Source: Carboxylicivirga sediminis
GTDB taxonomy: Bacteria > Bacteroidota > Bacteroidia > Bacteroidales > Marinilabiliaceae
NCBI RefSeq assembly: GCF_018156225.1
Contig: NZ_JAGTAR010000042.1
Coordinates: 1 to 46,816, forward strand
Direction of reading: 5' to 3'
Length of the DNA stretch: 46,816 nucleotides
Numbering within the stretch: position 1 is the first letter of the stretch; the number at the start of each line of letters is the position of its first letter. Under the pieces are notes generated by a model. That model searched no databases and was not told the DNA's origin. It saw only the letters and a list, made by a program, of their open reading frames with translations. Shown one piece after another: positions 40,564 through 46,463 of the stretch. Made by a program: the position numbers and the translations under genes.

Positions 40564-41805
40564 ATGGGTAAAAAAGTTACAACAGCGATAGTTTTATATA
40601 CAAGTCAAACAAAGAAGAATGGTAAGCACCCTGTGAAATTGAGAGTTACCTACAATAGGAAGCAAATGTATTATGGAATTGATACAAAAGACCGTGTTTA
40701 TGAGTTTACTCCAGATGAATTTAAGAAGGTTTTAGCACCAAAGCCAAGAGGTATTAATAAGGAAGTTCAACTTGAACTTTCTGAAATAGAGAGCAAAGCT
40801 CATCGAGTAATTACTTCAATGAGCGAGTTCTCTTTCAGAACGTTTAAAACAAGATTCGGTATTACAGGTGGTGACTTAACAAATATCCTTTTCTTTTTTG
40901 AAAGACGATTAAAAGAATTAAACGATAACGAGCAGCTAAGCAGCTACGGACACTATAAAGCATCGGCTAGAATGCTTAAAAAGTATTTTGGTAATAGCAA
41001 GCGAATTGATTTTAAAGATATAACTGTTTCAATGTTGGAAAAATTTGAGCGTTCATTGCTTGATGATGGACTTGCATTGGCAACAATTAGATGTTATACA
41101 GTTGCAATACGTGCAATATTCAGGATAGCTCAAAAGGATGGAGCTATTCCTTTAGATTTATACCCATTCGGACCAGATGGTTACCAAGTACCTGTTGGTA
41201 GAAATGTAAAGAAAGCACTTAAAATAAATGAGATTGAGAAAATTTATAAGTATGAGACTGTGGAATTCTCAACTATGGATGAAGCAAAGGATTTTTGGCT
41301 ATTAAGTTACTTTATGAATGGTGCAAACATAACAGATATAGCACGATTGAAGTACAGGAGCATTGGTGATGACTTTATCACTTTTATTCGTAAAAAAACC
41401 GAAAAAACAAGTAAACGACTAAAACCAATTAGTGTACCCATAACAGCCGAAATCAGTAGGATAATTGATAAATGGGGAAGAGCAGATCGCACACCTGACA
41501 ACTATGTATTCAAAATTTTGGAAGAAGGAATGTCTGCTCGAAGGATTCGCAGCCGTGAATGTATGTATATTCAAAAAATCAACAATAAAATGAAAATTAT
41601 TGGAGAGGATTTAGAAATTAAAAAGCCAATTACAACATATACAGCTCGGCATAGTTTTTCGACAGTATTAAAGCGATCTGGTGTATCTACTGAATTTATT
41701 GGAGAAAGTTTAGGTCATAATAATGTTCGCACAACCGAACTGTACCTAGATAGCTTTGAGGATGATATGAAAAAAGAAGTGGCAAAGCATTTAACGGCAT
41801 TTTAA
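40564..41805 (+). CDS. Tyrosine recombinase (integrase)
   Basis: A 413-residue phage-type integrase that would insert and excise the island. It has an arm-type DNA-binding region (about 1-60), a core-binding SAM-like domain (about 100-200) and a catalytic domain (about 215-410). Box II reads YTARHSF with Arg362, followed by GHNN (His385) and nucleophile Tyr394 (TTELYLDSF). At the usual Arg I position the sequence is NGANITD, without Arg; Arg261 shortly after may substitute, and CTnDOT integrase also lacks a canonical Arg I. It converges with the E1 gene. Confidence 0.9.
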   Translation: MGKKVTTAIVLYTSQTKKNGKHPVKLRVTYNRKQMYYGIDTKDRVYEFTPDEFKKVLAPKPRGINKEVQLELSEIESKAHRVITSMSEFSFRTFKTRFGITGGDLTNILFFFERRLKELNDNEQLSSYGHYKASARMLKKYFGNSKRIDFKDITVSMLEKFERSLLDDGLALATIRCYTVAIRAIFRIAQKDGAIPLDLYPFGPDGYQVPVGRNVKKALKINEIEKIYKYETVEFSTMDEAKDFWLLSYFMNGANITDIARLKYRSIGDDFITFIRKKTEKTSKRLKPISVPITAEISRIIDKWGRADRTPDNYVFKILEEGMSARRIRSRECMYIQKINNKMKIIGEDLEIKKPITTYTARHSFSTVLKRSGVSTEFIGESLGHNNVRTTELYLDSFEDDMKKEVAKHLTAF

Positions 41806-41813
41806 AAGGTAAA

Positions 41814-41840
41814 AGCCTAAATTCACTTACGATTTAGGCT
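41814..41840. terminator. Bidirectional terminator between integrase and E1 genes
   Basis: AGCCTAAAT pairs with ATTTAGGCT across a nine-base loop. It overlaps the last codons of the E1 gene and follows the integrase stop by nine bases. Confidence 0.55.
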
Positions 41841-43251
41841 CTTCATTTTCAGAAAAAAATAATTCAAATATCGAATCTCCAACTCCAACATGGTTTGTGA
41901 AATCACAGTTCTTTTCACATTCAACATCATAGTTACGACTAAGGAAGCCATGTTTAAATCTATATTTTTGCTCACCATAATATTCAGGTTCAACAAGGTT
42001 AGCTACTAAAGCCATGAAATGTAATACTTCCATTGATGCCAGATTAAAACTGAATGGAGAAATATTTTCACGATTCTTCAAGTGATGATTATCAGGTAAA
42101 CCTTGAATATATGAGGTATCTTCAAGAAGCCCTTGCTTTTCCAATTCAACATCCGAAGAATGATAAGCATTTAAACAATGTAAACAGGGTCTTCCCGGTG
42201 ATACTGTATGAACCGTCCAATCCGCAAAGTTTAGTTTTTTATTATCATCAAATTCAATACTAATACCTCCATCAATTACCGGAATGAGATGTGCATAAGC
42301 GATATGGTTTAGAATATATCTACCCCAAGGCTTATCAACACAGCTAAACAGAACATCACAATCTAGCGATAAACGATAGGCAACTTCGTTTGCTATATGT
42401 TTGTCAGCTATTTCTATTTCCAAGTTGTTTGAGGTCGATGATTTTTCAATATTTCTTTTTATGACATCAATTTTTCGCTCCCCTATATCATCTTTAAATA
42501 CACCGCACAATCTGTCAAGATTATGTTTTTTAACGGTATCATAATCGATTAAAACAAATTTGGAAATTCCCATTCTTGCAAGCATCTCACAGACAACTGA
42601 GCCAACACTACCAAGTCCTATAACTCCAACTCTTAGGCGAGTAATATCATCATTTTGTTCTTCGCCCCACACATTTACAGTTCTGATTGTTTGTCCGTTC
42701 GGTTTAGTTGCAGGTAGAATTTTATCATTAAAAAAAGGCTGAAGTTTTTTCCCTACAACTTTAACGGATTCTGACCATTTATAAATTATATCTTCGTCTT
42801 CACCATAATACCAAATCCTAGAACTCCAATATCCATCATTTCCCAAAGTCATTCCAACGAAAGGTAGCTCGGTTGTAGAAAAAGCATTTACAAATGTCTT
42901 CATTTCGGTTGATTTATCATCATCACTCATACCTTGCCAACCAAATGATATAGGATGACTATGCAGTAATGCAACACCATAGCCTTTCTTCAATGCAGTT
43001 CTACAAACTCGTAACAGGTATTCGTAATTATAACTTACGTTCCCATGAACATTTCTATCTCCCTTCTCTGGAAATATTACCTCTTTGATGATTGCTGTAA
43101 ACCTATTTTTGCCTTCGGAAGGAATCCATAAGGCAAAAGTTAAATCCTCTTGACCATCCTCTCTTAATAGGTGCAGCTTTAAGGTTTCATCAATAGGTTC
43201 ACTTAAAGCACAGCTAAAACTCTTTTGCTTAAATATTTTTAAATATTCCAT
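41827..43251 (-). CDS. JAB/JAMM peptidase fused to E1-like (ThiF) enzyme
   Basis: A 474-residue fusion. Residues 1-150 are a JAB/JAMM metalloprotease domain with Glu57 and HSHP (97-100) followed by Asp110-Asp112. Residues 195-450 are an E1/ThiF adenylation domain with GLGSVGS (212-218), Asp236, the NLDR motif (244-247) and Lys260. A structural zinc site is likely from Cys356, Cys359, Cys445 and Cys449. At the usual ThiF/MoeB cysteine position the sequence is ENISPFSF, without Cys. The E1 should adenylate the Ubl; the JAB part should process it or remove it from targets. The start overlaps the E2 stop by 23 bases. Confidence 0.88.
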   Translation of the reverse strand: MEYLKIFKQKSFSCALSEPIDETLKLHLLREDGQEDLTFALWIPSEGKNRFTAIIKEVIFPEKGDRNVHGNVSYNYEYLLRVCRTALKKGYGVALLHSHPISFGWQGMSDDDKSTEMKTFVNAFSTTELPFVGMTLGNDGYWSSRIWYYGEDEDIIYKWSESVKVVGKKLQPFFNDKILPATKPNGQTIRTVNVWGEEQNDDITRLRVGVIGLGSVGSVVCEMLARMGISKFVLIDYDTVKKHNLDRLCGVFKDDIGERKIDVIKRNIEKSSTSNNLEIEIADKHIANEVAYRLSLDCDVLFSCVDKPWGRYILNHIAYAHLIPVIDGGISIEFDDNKKLNFADWTVHTVSPGRPCLHCLNAYHSSDVELEKQGLLEDTSYIQGLPDNHHLKNRENISPFSFNLASMEVLHFMALVANLVEPEYYGEQKYRFKHGFLSRNYDVECEKNCDFTNHVGVGDSIFELFFSENEEPKS

Positions 43252-43609
43252 TTATTTGTGACATTAAATCTTTTGTTGGATTTTCAGCAGAAAGATTAAA
43301 TCGAAAACTCCAATATCTCCACTCATTTCCAAGATTACTATTAATAATATTTCGTTTTCCTGCTATCGTATCTTTACAATCAAGAAGGTGAGGATTCGAT
43401 TTTACGTGAATACTAGCTCCAGCAGTTCTTGGGTAATCTTTTGGGACAGGAATAGCTAACGCAATTCCTTGTCCTTTAAAGATTCCAAACTGAATTTCAT
43501 ATTCAGTAATAGCAACATAATCCATCCCTTTGCGATCTATCAAATACTCAACGGAATAATCATCTGAGATTAAATCATTGTATAATCTCTCTTTTCCATA
43601 TTCACTCAT
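43229..43609 (-). CDS. E2-like (UBC-fold) protein
   Basis: A 126-residue protein with the core UBC pattern: ALAIPVPKDYPRTAGA near residues 50-65, as in the E2 strand and loop, then NPHLLDC near 72-78 and WRYWSFRF near 97-104. It resembles the Prok-E2 groups found with multiubiquitin-type Ubls. The HPN motif is absent and the only Cys is Cys78, so either Cys78 or a Ser/other residue must carry the Ubl. Its start overlaps the Ubl stop by four bases. Ubl transfer is inferred from context. Confidence 0.75.
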   Translation of the reverse strand: MSEYGKERLYNDLISDDYSVEYLIDRKGMDYVAITEYEIQFGIFKGQGIALAIPVPKDYPRTAGASIHVKSNPHLLDCKDTIAGKRNIINSNLGNEWRYWSFRFNLSAENPTKDLMSQINGIFKNI

Positions 43610-43839
43610 GAGACTGGATTAGGTTTTTTACTAAAAATGGAAAAGTGCATCCCATTTTTCATTTCAATAACCTGTTCGAGGTCATTTAACTCGCCTAAAT
43701 CATGTCCATGCTTTAACACAAGAACATTTTCTTGTGGATTGTAACCACCATAGTCAACAAGTATTTGCTTTACTGTTAACTGTGTTTCAGAAGTTTCAAA
43801 CTTCTTCTTCTCAATAAAAAAAACGGTTTTGTCGTTCAT
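43606..43839 (-). CDS. Ubiquitin-like beta-grasp protein, multiubiquitin type
   Basis: A 77-residue protein with the beta-grasp order: strand (TVFFIEKKKFET), helix (TVKQILVDYGG), strands (NVLVLKHG, QVIEMKNGMHFSIF). This pattern matches the Multi_ubiq family, here as a single domain. The C-terminus ends KKPNPVS, with no Gly-Gly; the JAB domain next door might trim it, or a non-glycine end may be activated. It overlaps the E2 gene by four bases and follows the 41-residue peptide gene by 25 bases. Confidence 0.78.
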   Translation of the reverse strand: MNDKTVFFIEKKKFETSETQLTVKQILVDYGGYNPQENVLVLKHGHDLGELNDLEQVIEMKNGMHFSIFSKKPNPVS

Positions 43840-43864
43840 CTTAAAAAAAATTAAATGTTAATAT

Positions 43865-43990
43865 TTATTTACCTTTTGAGTCTTTTCTGTTACTCCTAAC
43901 ATGAGGTTTAACCTCTATTTTCTTTCCGTTGACAACTTTTGTGTAACCGGGAATGCGATTGAACTTGCTTCCACTTGAATCTTTTGCCAT
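43865..43990 (-). CDS. Small basic 41-residue protein at the head of the Ubl operon
   Basis: A short ORF (MAKDSSGSKFNRIPGYTKVV at the start, ending SNRKDSKGK) with nine Lys and three Arg. The middle has PGYTKVVNGKKIEVKPHVRS, which recalls small Bacteroidota proteins of the GYxxxxGxxVxxHxRS pattern. It lies 25 bases before the Ubl gene, has an ATG start and good frame, and the surrounding gap is otherwise empty, so it is probably real. Function unknown; as a Lys-rich partner it could be a target or regulator of conjugation, which is speculation. Confidence 0.6.
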   Translation of the reverse strand: MAKDSSGSKFNRIPGYTKVVNGKKIEVKPHVRSNRKDSKGK

Positions 43991-44037
43991 ATATTTACTT
44001 ATTATTGCTATTTTTAACTGTTCTTTACCTGTATACT

Positions 44038-44058
44038 AAAAGCGTGACTCACGCTTTT
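44038..44058. promoter_or_regulatory. Perfect 10+1+10 bp palindrome between divergent operons
   Basis: AAAAGCGTGA, one C, then TCACGCTTTT. It lies 47 bases before the 41-residue gene and 23 bases before the sigma-factor start, so one bound dimer could control both operons. No run of T residues follows on either side beyond the arms, and both neighbours start here, so a terminator is unlikely. Confidence 0.7.
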
Positions 44059-44081
44059 GGTAGTTAATTAATAAGACTATT

Positions 44082-44747
44082 TTGGAAGTTAAAGAAGAAA
44101 TAAAAACGGCTTGTAGCCTTGATTTACTAGAGTATATCGGCTGGAAAGATGAATACCCAGAAGAAGCAAAGGCTGCTTTTAGCGTTTTCTGCCTTCGCTA
44201 TGACCAAGCGATATTAAAAAATGCAGAGATTAACTGTAGAAAATGGAATTTATCCTCGACAGTTGCTTTAGACATAGTTAAATGCACTTTTGCACGAGTT
44301 TGGAAATATCCTTCATACAATCATGAGAAATCAAAAACAAAAAACATTGACAATGGAATTAAAAGGTGGCTAAACAAAATATCTTTTACCCAACTTGCAA
44401 ATTACACCGATAAAGGTACATGTCACGAACCTGACAAGGAAACTGACTTATCTCTTATCTATTCTCTTGATGATTTTGTTGAAAATTCAACAGTTGATAG
44501 TTTAAAAAGAAAAGAACTAAAAGAGCAACTAAGTGTTTTAGAAGAAGTTCTTAATGGTTTAGGTGAGAAGCACAGAATCATTTATTTAACGTATAAATTA
44601 TACACCCATGAGGGGAATAATATTCCTAGACCTGTAAGTAAGAAACTTCAAGATGAGTTAGGGTTAGTTCCTGGTTCTATAAGGAAGTATAAGGAACAAG
44701 CCAACAAACAAGTCGATAACTTTTTAAATCAGTACAATGGCAAATAA
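44082..44747 (+). CDS. ECF-like sigma factor of the Ubl island
   Basis: A 221-residue protein with a sigma region 2 pattern (AFSVFCLRYDQAILKNA, then VALDIVKCTFARVWKY and IKRWLNKISFTQLANY) and a region 4-like helix-turn-helix at the C-terminus (EKHRIIYLTYKLYTHEG then GSIRKYKEQANKQVDNFL). The frame has no ATG; the start is probably TTG at 44082, 23 bases after the palindrome. It overlaps the next gene by 11 bases. It may direct transcription of the island genes. The call rests on pattern only and could be a divergent regulator. Confidence 0.65.
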   Translation: MEVKEEIKTACSLDLLEYIGWKDEYPEEAKAAFSVFCLRYDQAILKNAEINCRKWNLSSTVALDIVKCTFARVWKYPSYNHEKSKTKNIDNGIKRWLNKISFTQLANYTDKGTCHEPDKETDLSLIYSLDDFVENSTVDSLKRKELKEQLSVLEEVLNGLGEKHRIIYLTYKLYTHEGNNIPRPVSKKLQDELGLVPGSIRKYKEQANKQVDNFLNQYNGK

Positions 44748-45078
44748 AAAGAAAAACATGGACATTAACGCTGATAGATTTGATGAACTGTTAGCTATTG
44801 CAGGCTACACTTACCCAAGAACAGATAAGGAGTTAGAGATTTTTGAATCAATGTATGAAGATTACGACTTTGAGTTAAAAGATGTAAGAATAAATCCTGA
44901 AGAAATCATTAGTGGTTCTTTTGAAATGAAAGGTAAGGTAATAAAACTTCAAGATGAAGAAGAACAACAGGATATTAGTGAAATAAGGTTGGCTGCAAGA
45001 AAAGGTAGTGAAGAAATACCTCAATCAATTCTTGATAAAATGAAGAGCAAGCATAAAGATGGAGATAAACAATCGTAA
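44737..45078 (+). CDS. Unknown 113-residue protein between sigma and ImmA genes
   Basis: An acidic, soluble protein I do not recognise (MANKKKNMDINADRF at the start). The C-terminal third (DISEIRLAARKGSEEIPQSI) is charged and helical with a basic end. It overlaps the sigma gene by 11 bases and the ImmA gene by 20, so it is made with both. Its position fits an anti-sigma or adaptor protein that the ImmA protease could degrade; this is inference. Confidence 0.6.
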   Translation: MANKKKNMDINADRFDELLAIAGYTYPRTDKELEIFESMYEDYDFELKDVRINPEEIISGSFEMKGKVIKLQDEEEQQDISEIRLAARKGSEEIPQSILDKMKSKHKDGDKQS

Positions 45079-45850
45079 AAGAAACCAGATAAAAGATTTA
45101 GCAGAATTTCTAGCTCTTGAGCATGATGAAACTGTTACTCCATTAAATAAAATTGCTGATTTAGAAGAGCTACCTATATTTTATGATGATTATGGAAATG
45201 CTTTTGATGGAACTCTAGTTTATGATAAAAGCTATTACATACACATAAATACTGCACTCGGAAACACTTCTGATAAAGAAAGAGGGCGTTTTACATTAGC
45301 CCATGAGCTTGGGCACTACTTCATTGACAGCCATAGGATTGCTTTAAGAGCTGGTTTGATTAAACCGCATCCATCAAGATATAATAAAAACAAACATCAA
45401 GTAATTGAACTTGAAGCTGATTATTTTGCTTCTTGTATTTTGATGCCTGAAAAGAGATTTAGAAAAGACTGTGAAAAGTATCGAAAATTCGATTATCAAG
45501 TTATTGAAAATTTAGCAAAGCAATATTTAGTAAGTATTACGGCATGTGCTATTCGTTTTGCTGACATTGGAACACACCCGATTATGGTTGTATATATGGA
45601 AGATAATCGTATTGCTTGGAAATGGCAAAGTAATGATTTTCGATTCTGGAAATTAGCCGATGGTAAAGAAGTTGTGCCAAAAGACAGTTTAGCAGGTAAA
45701 TATTTTAATACAGGTACGGGTGAAAAAAGAACAGAGGAATTATGGGGTGTTGACTGGTTTGATGGGATTAGTGATGATAATATCAACTTCAAAGTTTATG
45801 AACAGGTGATTCCATACAAGAATAAGGTTTTAAGTATCGTATGGTATTAG
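45059..45850 (+). CDS. ImmA/IrrE family metalloprotease
   Basis: A 263-residue protease of the COG2856 type. The zinc motif HELGH is at 82-86 in TLAHELGHYFIDSH, with a third ligand near Glu119 (ELEADYFAS). Relatives cleave a repressor (ImmR, DdrO) to release mobile-element or DNA-damage genes. Here no Xre-type repressor is adjacent; the 113-residue protein or the sigma factor is the likely substrate. It ends the three-gene operon and converges with the muramidase gene. Such proteases are common in phage and conjugative islands. Confidence 0.85.
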   Translation: MEINNRKRNQIKDLAEFLALEHDETVTPLNKIADLEELPIFYDDYGNAFDGTLVYDKSYYIHINTALGNTSDKERGRFTLAHELGHYFIDSHRIALRAGLIKPHPSRYNKNKHQVIELEADYFASCILMPEKRFRKDCEKYRKFDYQVIENLAKQYLVSITACAIRFADIGTHPIMVVYMEDNRIAWKWQSNDFRFWKLADGKEVVPKDSLAGKYFNTGTGEKRTEELWGVDWFDGISDDNINFKVYEQVIPYKNKVLSIVWY

Positions 45851-45902
45851 ATTAGATATTTCAGGAGGGATACGGATACTTAATTTTTAATTTGTATTAG
45901 TA

Positions 45903-46463
45903 CTAATCTTCAAACTCAATTTTGCCAATCCGTTTCAACCAACCCTCCAAAAATAAATGATTTTTGCCTTTCTTGGCAATCTTGTGGTAATAGCGAATTC
46001 TTGCTTTTTTGATTTCCCAAAATAGTTCCTTTGGCTGGCAATTGGCAATTGCTGCAAGGGTCATTTTACCAATAATACCGTCCATCTTTAAATCAGCTTC
46101 AAAGAATTGGTTTAGCACACGTTGAACACCTCTGGCTCCCCATACTCCACTATTAACGCACCAATCAAAAATGATTTCCTGTATTGAGCCATTGGATATT
46201 TCATCAATTTTAAACCTTTTGTAAAAGGTCTGCTCATAAAAACCCTTTACAAGCTCTGTCAATTGAGGAACATCAATCTTAAAGTTCCAAGGTATTTTTC
46301 CATAGGTTTCCTTGTAGGCATCAATGTATTGCCAACCTTCCCAATCGGGGTGCAAATTCCGGGCAACACCCATATAGGTTTCTCCACCTCGGTCGCCCTC
46401 TACATTGGCATAATAGCCTTCATGTTTGATTACACCATCAAACAACTCATCGAATGTTTTCAT
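45903..46463 (-). CDS. GH108-type N-acetylmuramidase (lysozyme)
   Basis: A 186-residue peptidoglycan hydrolase. The N-terminal GH108 motif shows the catalytic Glu in KHEGYY (residues 14-19) followed by GDRGGETYMGV, and the middle has IIFDWCVNSG. The C-terminal part (about 110-180) resembles a peptidoglycan-binding domain (VQRVLNQFF, DGIIGKMT). It overlaps the holin-like gene by four bases, forming a lysis-type pair usual in phages and phage-derived particles. No signal peptide is present, so export probably depends on the holin-like partner. Confidence 0.87.
   Translation of the reverse strand: MKTFDELFDGVIKHEGYYANVEGDRGGETYMGVARNLHPDWEGWQYIDAYKETYGKIPWNFKIDVPQLTELVKGFYEQTFYKRFKIDEISNGSIQEIIFDWCVNSGVWGARGVQRVLNQFFEADLKMDGIIGKMTLAAIANCQPKELFWEIKKARIRYYHKIAKKGKNHLFLEGWLKRIGKIEFED

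Follow-up and report, generated by a model that had tools for sequence, protein, structure and literature searches.

The bacterial ubiquitination-like (Bub) system of Citrobacter, known from solved structures (Protein Data Bank (PDB) entries 9ea4, 9ea5, 9ea8, 9eae and 9eav), consists of a ubiquitin-like protein (Ubl), an E2 without a conserved cysteine, and an E1 fused to a JAB peptidase. The stretch of DNA studied here, 46,816 nucleotides of Carboxylicivirga sediminis (contig NZ_JAGTAR010000042.1, hereafter the window), carries a four-gene operon that is a new member of this published kind. Divergent from it lies a three-gene unit for a sigma factor of the extracytoplasmic function (ECF) type, as judged by fold, a putative anti-sigma protein and the metalloprotease CapP. 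We consider it probable, though well short of certain, that the operon is a Bub conjugation system under the control of this unit and is switched on by release of the sigma factor.

Several described systems resemble parts of this locus; statements cited by PMC number refer to excerpts of those papers. The type 6e systems of Iyer et al. 2006 (PMC1779556) also have an E1 mostly with an N-terminal JAB domain, a Ubl of 70-75 amino acids (aa) and an E2/RWD-like protein lacking a conserved cysteine, but the excerpt names proteobacteria, cyanobacteria and actinobacteria and gives one to three Ubl repeats. Bil (BilABCD) and the type II cyclic-oligonucleotide-based antiphage signalling system (CBASS; Cap2/Cap3) share the logic of Ubl conjugation, and a sigma unit adjoins some of them. 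However, Bil has separate E1 and JAB proteins, and type II CBASS has an E1-E2 fusion together with a cGAS/DncV-like nucleotidyltransferase (CD-NTase).

The CapH+CapP controller, which reportedly goes back to Lau et al. in 2022, includes a CapP protease and has its genes beside an immune operon, as does the window unit. The latter differs in having an added sigma factor and, in place of the helix-turn-helix (HTH) repressor, a protein without a recognisable HTH. CapP is activated by single-stranded DNA, and among the 544 Bub operons counted, CapW or CapH+CapP accompanies 219 and CapK+CapS another 59 (PMC13373217). CapK+CapS is likewise a DNA-damage controller found beside Bub, Bil and CBASS, but it consists of a kinase and a STAS-winged HTH repressor, not of a sigma factor and a protease (PMC13373217). 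The CalpL/CalpT/CalpS set of type III CRISPR is also an immune combination of protease, anti-sigma factor and ECF sigma factor; CalpL, however, is a Lon-SAVED protease activated by cyclic tetra-adenylate (cA4), with CRISPR as partner (PMC11417357), whereas the window protease belongs to the M78/CapP family by Pfam, so the window unit is not a CalpL/T/S system. The literature searched, including the excerpts of PMC13373217 and PMC9122588 (supplements not covered), yielded no report of a CapP controller with a sigma factor; the mentions of 'sigma factor' in the former (12 at 8 places) all concern anti-sigma-like proteins or references.

The bub operon

Four open reading frames (ORFs) make up the operon, with successive spacings, from the peptide onward, of a 25-nt gap, a 4-nt overlap and a 23-nt overlap:

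43865..43990, minus strand: 41-aa basic peptide, first ORF of the operon (homologues in genome G001 and locus L062)
43606..43839, minus strand: BubA, single-domain Ubl, 77 aa (profile of 8 Ubls)
43229..43609, minus strand: BubB, E2-like protein without a family-wide cysteine, 126 aa (Prok-E2_E below cut-off; profile match to 9eae_C)
41827..43251, minus strand: BubCD, N-terminal JAB/JAMM peptidase and C-terminal E1 (ThiF), 474 aa (Pfam, phmmer, profile, invariant residues)

A first-pass annotation, made from the letters of the window, had placed four ORFs here with overlaps or tiny gaps and had read them as a ubiquitin-like conjugation operon. All four were confirmed on the minus strand, and the reading is borne out by matches to BubCD, BubB and BubA of Citrobacter. 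Judged by sequence comparison, the operon is real and belongs to Bub, because the profiles of its JAB-E1, E2 and Ubl match these three proteins. Seeds for the profiles came from a search with PF14462 in 395 genomes of the phylum. The profile of 10 JAB-E1s matches Citrobacter BubCD at 4.7e-108 over profile positions 6-461 of 470, and a single-sequence phmmer search among solved structures has Citrobacter BubCD 9ea4_A as its top match (1.8e-26, residues 16-358 of the 474-aa protein). The profile of 10 E2s yields only two matches, both BubB chains (Citrobacter 9eae_C, 5.4e-29), and that of 8 Ubls matches a multi-ubiquitin protein (9cd2, 2.8e-14), BilA (8u38, 2.4e-8) and Citrobacter BubA (9ea8_B, 2.6e-7). 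A JAB domain fused to the E1 N-terminus and an E2 of the Prok-E2_E type are thus present, and the BubA-type Ubl is recognised by profile only. By homology, the E1 of BubCD would activate the Ubl, BubB would help to transfer it to targets, and the JAB domain would process or remove it.

The JAMM and E1 nucleotide motifs noted at first sight hold across an alignment of 10 JAB-E1 sequences, in which the residues read as JAMM (E35, H97, H99 and D111) and as the nucleotide site (G212, G217, S218, D236, N244, R247 and D306) are invariant. When the proteins were run against Pfam, as had been proposed, ThiF matched the E1 half of the 474-aa protein (1.8e-32), Prok-E2_E reached 2.7e-4 and 21.1 bits for the E2, below its 25-bit cut-off, and neither the Ubl nor the peptide matched any family. 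The UBC core attributed to the 126-aa protein therefore holds at the level of the BubB profile but not of the single sequence, and no cysteine is conserved across the 10 aligned E2s, the sole invariant column being S101. The E2s of the window and of G001, a genome of the same genus, have one cysteine, in LLDCKD, where the other eight aligned Bub E2s have none.

That the operon matches neither Bil nor type II CBASS, as first proposed, also stands. A single 474-aa fusion occupies the place of the separate JAB (BilC) and E1 (BilD) genes of Bil. The PADLOC families listed (25 of 33) are CBASS E1-E2 models, and PADLOC gave no cyclase match among the eight proteins scanned at 40564-45850. The JAB-E1 fusion was at first suspected of marking a new system; this was ruled out by the solved BubCD in the PDB, which is the same fusion, so the earlier view of it as unmatched falls. 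The window operon nevertheless differs from Citrobacter Bub in its sigma-type regulator, and in its Ubl, which has 77 aa, whereas the name of the Citrobacter BubA chain gives it as residues 155-229 of a larger protein. Identity of its JAB-E1 to those of the other eight Bub relatives in the alignment is only 20-26%.

PF14462 matched in 8 of the 395 phylum genomes, the window's own not among them. The neighbourhood survey that had been suggested was made in these eight: the E2 adjoins the JAB-E1 gene in all of them, and a Ubl lies upstream or fused, by model in seven and by eye in the eighth (L023). Single-sequence searches are too weak for so divergent an operon. With the JAB-E1, 141 of 149 relatives match; among the matches listed, only the window genome (G000) and G001, whose protein is 97% identical, match at full length, and the others reach at most 49.2 bits, mostly in the E1 domain only. 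With the E2 alone, 395 genomes of the class gave the window and one match in G383, which was dropped as its neighbours look by eye like iron-sulphur assembly genes. Five stretches of viral contigs were picked up and none was confirmed, and no E2 match was found among plasmids.

The bub ORFs are under purifying selection. Ratios of nonsynonymous to synonymous substitution (dN/dS) against G001 are 0.06 for the JAB-E1, and 0.25, 0.23 and 0.12 for the E2, Ubl and peptide, the last three values resting on only 7, 6 and 3 changes, respectively. The 41-aa peptide keeps 40 of its 41 residues in G001. A homologue 71% identical lies upstream of a CBASS operon in L062 (6510-6632), so that the peptide precedes a Bub operon in one place and a CBASS operon in the other, each beside related sigma modules.

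The divergent sigma, small-protein and CapP unit

Three genes, at 44082-45850, run divergently from the bub operon, successive genes overlapping by 11 and 20 nt. They lie just outside the span covered by the first-pass annotation and were missed there:

44082..44747, plus strand: ECF-like sigma factor, 221 aa, TTG start (weak NCBIfam match; AlphaFold and Foldseek)
44737..45078, plus strand: 113-aa protein without a recognisable HTH, putative anti-sigma factor (PADLOC capH, 6.5e-12)
45059..45850, plus strand: CapP-type M78 metalloprotease, 263 aa, HELGH motif (PADLOC capP, Pfam, 7t5t_A)

The identity of the 263-aa protease as CapP is secure at the level of sequence, with matches to PADLOC capP (1.6e-66), Pfam Peptidase_M78 (6e-16) and the solved CapP 7t5t_A (1.6e-11). 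For the 221-aa protein, the sigma2 and sigma4 domains of an ECF sigma factor are indicated by fold only, sequence models being weak. Its AlphaFold model has a mean predicted local distance difference test score (pLDDT) of 86.4 and a predicted template-modelling score of 0.55. Foldseek returned 180 matches, none at E of 0.001 or below. The best is 6kon_F of a SigH complex (E 3.3e-3, probability 1.00), the top 12 rows are ECF sigma factors (SigH, AlgU, SigE and SigL) with probability near 1, and the best 50 of the 180 have titles of sigma-factor or RNA-polymerase initiation entries, the chain being unchecked for a few lower rows. By its predicted fold, the protein would be an ECF-like sigma factor.

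The 113-aa protein matches the PADLOC capH model (PDLC04142) over residues 7-108. We considered it as an ordinary HTH CapH, which would complete a CapH+CapP pair with the M78 protease; no N-terminal HTH was found either by Pfam, which assigns no family at all, or by a model built from five HTH CapH proteins. No relevant solved chain was matched. PDLC04142 also matches the five HTH CapH-like proteins, at 7.6e-20 to 2.8e-31, and thus mixes HTH CapH proteins with sigma-linked proteins that have no recognisable HTH.

CapP loci with sigma factors and with CapH

A survey of the class found CapP in 32 of 395 genomes, the window's included. We examined 14 further CapP places with E up to 9.6e-16, leaving out weaker rows. 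In all 14, an ORF of 104-145 aa and one of 179-257 aa lie directly upstream on the strand of CapP, and 10 of the larger ORFs resemble the sigma factor of the window or that of G001 by single-sequence phmmer. We divided the larger ORFs into two groups of sigma factors and the smaller ones likewise into two, and models built from them served in a second survey, which covered the best 80 of at least 182 confirmed CapP relatives in named genomes. A sigma factor is upstream at 16 of these 80 loci and an HTH CapH at 35 (five of which supplied the HTH model); both occur at none and neither at 29. Between the two surveys no pair of loci reaches 80% DNA identity, and the near relatives within the 80 (L093/L096, L095/L100, L101/L103/L114 and L108/L112/L115) include none of the sigma set. 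Seventeen small proteins of the sigma-linked kind (alignment A5, which includes an L077 protein that is probably not a true member) gave no match to the HTH-CapH model with E-values of up to 10 allowed.

Seven of the 16 sigma loci are from Bacteroidota (Sphingobacterium, Chryseobacterium, Chitinophagaceae, Robertkochia, Flavobacteriaceae, Winogradskyella and Mucilaginibacter), one is from Fodinibius, and eight are from Botrimarina, Methylophilus, Kofleriaceae, Anaerolineae, Methylotenera, Mesorhizobium, Devosia and Luteibacter. The 35 HTH loci include 21 from Proteobacteria and five from Bacteroidota, the latter with short CapP-like ORFs of 171-183 aa. Three of the 29 loci with neither partner (L091, L093 and L096; Planctomycetota or Pirellulales) have an ORF of 213-224 aa at the sigma position, and by eye the L091 ORF resembles a sigma factor. 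On balance we favour the view that CapP has two alternative partners, either the HTH repressor CapH or an ECF sigma factor with a cleavable anti-sigma protein. We lean equally towards a sigma-paired class that is widespread, being common in Bacteroidota and scattered in other phyla, in which de-repression becomes sigma-factor release.

Motifs between the divergent operons

The region between the two operons contains one outstanding element:

44038..44058, no strand: 21-bp palindrome with two outward-facing SIG1 motif copies, in the putative promoter region between the divergent bub and sigma operons (palindrome scan, motif)

It is the only perfect palindrome in the window with arms of at least 10 and a loop of 0-1. 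An 18-bp motif (SIG1), a.TcACGGtTTT.ggTAT, is common to the 12 intergenic regions of group-1 sigma factors. Its log-likelihood is 79.5, whereas 12 dinucleotide shuffles run with equal restarts average 52.9 and do not exceed 56.8. The 14 regions of group-2 sigma factors share a different motif of 30 bp (123.4 against a maximum of 94.0 in 8 shuffles). Eight of the 12 group-1 regions also have the core in inverted orientation, directed towards the immune operon, at spacings of 6, 6, 7, 18, 20, 28, 29 and 32 bp; in the window this arrangement makes up the 44038-44058 palindrome. Such variable spacing fits two back-to-back putative sites better than one dimer operator.

Neighbouring immune operons

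A CD-NTase of CBASS lies beside sigma modules in L061, L062, L068, L069, L084, L086, L087 and L088; BilB, BilC and BilD are beside one in L070, and a BilD-like E1 in L064 (4.8e-15). Bub adjoins sigma modules in the window, L063, L071, L078, L099 and L116 (with BubCD in two frames), and less clearly in L124. An E1-like gene of unclear type is present in L065, and L085 ends at a contig end. The neighbours of L066, L067, L072, L073, L074, L089, L092, L097, L105, L113, L117, L130 and L146 were left unclassified. These counts are not frequencies, because the genes given to PADLOC were chosen for their immune-like look.

Some of these places hold other genes. A protein of 415-417 aa, similar in sequence among L066 (4825-6075), L072 (4352-5599) and L092 (4628-5872), lies divergent beside sigma/CapP modules in the place that CBASS or Bub operons occupy elsewhere; the L092 copy has no Pfam match, and a 413-aa ORF in L089 was not compared. 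This may be an uncharacterised immune gene. In L074 (2262-5702) the module is divergent from genes that resemble by eye TnsA, TnsB and TnsC of a Tn7-like transposon. The Bub locus L077 (6617-9371) has a 281-aa protein with the group-1 small-protein domain (1e-9), two genes from a caspase-family protease (3.4e-14) that stands instead of CapP, as well as a 266-aa ORF without a model match. Another Bub locus, L076 (5393-7386), may combine the sigma and HTH-CapH architectures: it carries a sigma-like 174-aa ORF (5e-8), an M78 protease and a 178-aa HTH protein that the HTH-CapH model matches at 4.9e-5.

Comparison with G001 and the cargo slot

The bub operon and its regulator are cargo between two genes (40564-46463), which refines the first impression of an integrase-bearing island; the integrase gene does adjoin the operon:

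40564..41805, plus strand: tyrosine integrase, one edge of the slot (Pfam Phage_integrase 3.1e-13, Phage_int_SAM_5 2e-14)
45903..46463, minus strand: GH108 lysozyme-like gene, other edge of the slot (Pfam Glyco_hydro_108 3.4e-19)

Window and G001 DNA are 93-100% identical from about 41858 to 43957 and 82% in the last block to 44019, dissimilar at 44020-45907, and 87-94% identical from 45908 on, except for the 9 bases at the end. In the integrase part, 150-column blocks show 57-79% identity. We rejected a swap of the regulator in an otherwise shared element, since the bub cassette is closer than either the integrase or the GH108 side; to judge from these same differences in identity, it probably recombined independently of its flanks. 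In G001, 1.5 kb with a group-2 sigma factor (1.8e-23) corresponds to 44020-45907 of the window. It also encodes a 262-aa protein with the group-2 small-protein domain at its N-terminus (residues 3-80, 2.5e-7) and no Pfam match in the rest, and no CapP was found on the 7.5-kb bub contig. Such a fusion without CapP is expected if the small-protein domain is the sigma-binding part. Two different regulators, with separate putative promoter regions, thus appear to serve closely related bub cassettes, and the small-protein domain can apparently be joined to another part.

The integrase is at the same position in G001, G002 and G004, and in G010 as a fragment at a contig end; the GH108 gene borders the slot in all four. 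The content of the slot differs among the five genomes of the genus, G000, G001, G002, G004 and G010 (window 40564-46463; L075, L194-L197). In G002 about 0.3 kb separates the two border genes and holds just a 48-aa ORF, G004 has a 1104-aa protein, G010 has a 749-aa protein, and a second contig of G001 has Fur-like, TonB-receptor-like and transporter-like genes (by eye). The six 1-kb blocks at 40-46 kb have a G+C content of 32.5-35.3%, and the other blocks of the window 34.6-49.0%.

Proposed mechanism and alternatives

We propose that the divergent three-gene unit would control the bub operon as follows. The sigma factor would read promoters that face outward and serve both the bub operon and its own, and at rest the 113-aa protein would keep it inactive. 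DNA damage or phage replication would provide single-stranded DNA that activates CapP, which would then cleave the 113-aa protein, the putative anti-sigma factor. The freed sigma factor would switch the bub operon on, leading to Ubl conjugation. The anti-sigma role, the cleavage by CapP, the DNA-damage signal and the promoter function are what we infer. Support comes from the gene identities, the conserved gene order, the shared motif and the alternation with HTH CapH; from the near-identical bub cassette that adjoins another sigma regulator in G001; and from the sigma modules that adjoin CBASS, Bil and other Bub operons. There is also a precedent, in that CalpL cleaves the anti-sigma factor CalpT bound to the sigma factor CalpS (PMC11417357).

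Several observations weigh against this proposal. The 221-aa protein has no Pfam match, its NCBIfam match (Sig70_bacteroi1, 4.3e-4) is below the cut-off, and its Foldseek matches have template-modelling scores of about 0.3 with E-values above 0.001. Of 10 other proteins at the sigma position, one (L064) passes the Pfam cut-off for Sigma70_r2, three (L066, L068 and L073) fall below it and six have no sigma domain by Pfam; the larger ORFs of L070-L073, 4 of the 14, resemble neither the window nor the G001 sigma factor by single-sequence phmmer. The 113-aa protein gave a poor AlphaFold model of short helices (pLDDT 66.9), and for this reason its anti-sigma role draws on the order of the genes and on the fusion seen in G001; the protein may also be distantly related to CapH, as the capH model matches both kinds. 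Without L061 the group-1 motif scores 74.0 against a maximum of 65.0 in 8 shuffles, a smaller margin. The inverted core is absent from 4 of the 12 group-1 regions, and the half-site cores were picked after viewing the sequences. Neither partner was detected at 29 of the 80 CapP loci, where many of the weaker relatives may be other M78 proteases.

The most direct alternative is a plain CapH+CapP controller, in which the 113-aa protein would be a true but diverged CapH that represses by binding the palindrome, and the 221-aa protein would be accessory. The capH match of 6.5e-12 over residues 7-108, the resemblance of the 44038-44058 palindrome to a dimer operator and the reported association of CapW or CapH+CapP with 219 of 544 Bub operons (PMC13373217) speak for it. 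We nevertheless hold it to be unlikely, considering the lack of an HTH by Pfam, the 0 of 17 A5 small proteins that match the HTH-CapH model, half-site spacings of 6-32 bp over eight loci, which are odd for one dimer site, and the sigma-sized ORF upstream of CapP in 14 of 14 places. The sigma/CapP unit could instead serve the mobile element, for excision or transfer on DNA damage, as with ImmR/ImmA, and not the bub operon. Its location between the integrase and GH108 genes would agree with this, as would the ImmR-like regulator that activates an integrative and conjugative element in Streptococcus mutans (PMC10233336). However, the slots of G002, G004 and G010 keep the border genes with no sigma/CapP match (the G010 contig is short), and elsewhere the unit adjoins CBASS and Bil operons, which makes service to the element improbable.

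Two further alternatives concern the operon rather than its controller. The first-pass annotation had suggested antiphage defence or stress-linked protein tagging, and either would be a putative function. Bub may be a general stress protein-tagging system and not an antiphage one; PMC13373217 states that phage protection by Bub is undemonstrated and that it may mediate more global stress responses. A controller unit common to CBASS and Bil operons and the position of the bub operon in an exchangeable cargo slot argue the other way, and we regard stress tagging as a serious contender with somewhat less than even chances. The operon could also have ceased to conjugate through degeneration of the E2 or the Ubl. 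The last residues of the Ubl are NPVS, with no glycine at the C-terminus, and the E2 reads WSFRF where most relatives read WSRH. The canonical E2 catalytic cysteine lies between the YP and WSRH motifs, and solved BubB likewise has none there; with the low dN/dS against G001, this leaves degeneration very improbable.

Should control by sigma release be true, a cell that senses damaged DNA would free a sigma factor for its defence operons, beyond lifting repressors, and the database label capH would cover two different proteins. The window and G001, in which different sigma units adjoin the same operon, would allow specificity to be compared in matched pairs. Since related units have related motifs, one activated sigma factor might switch on several defence operons together.

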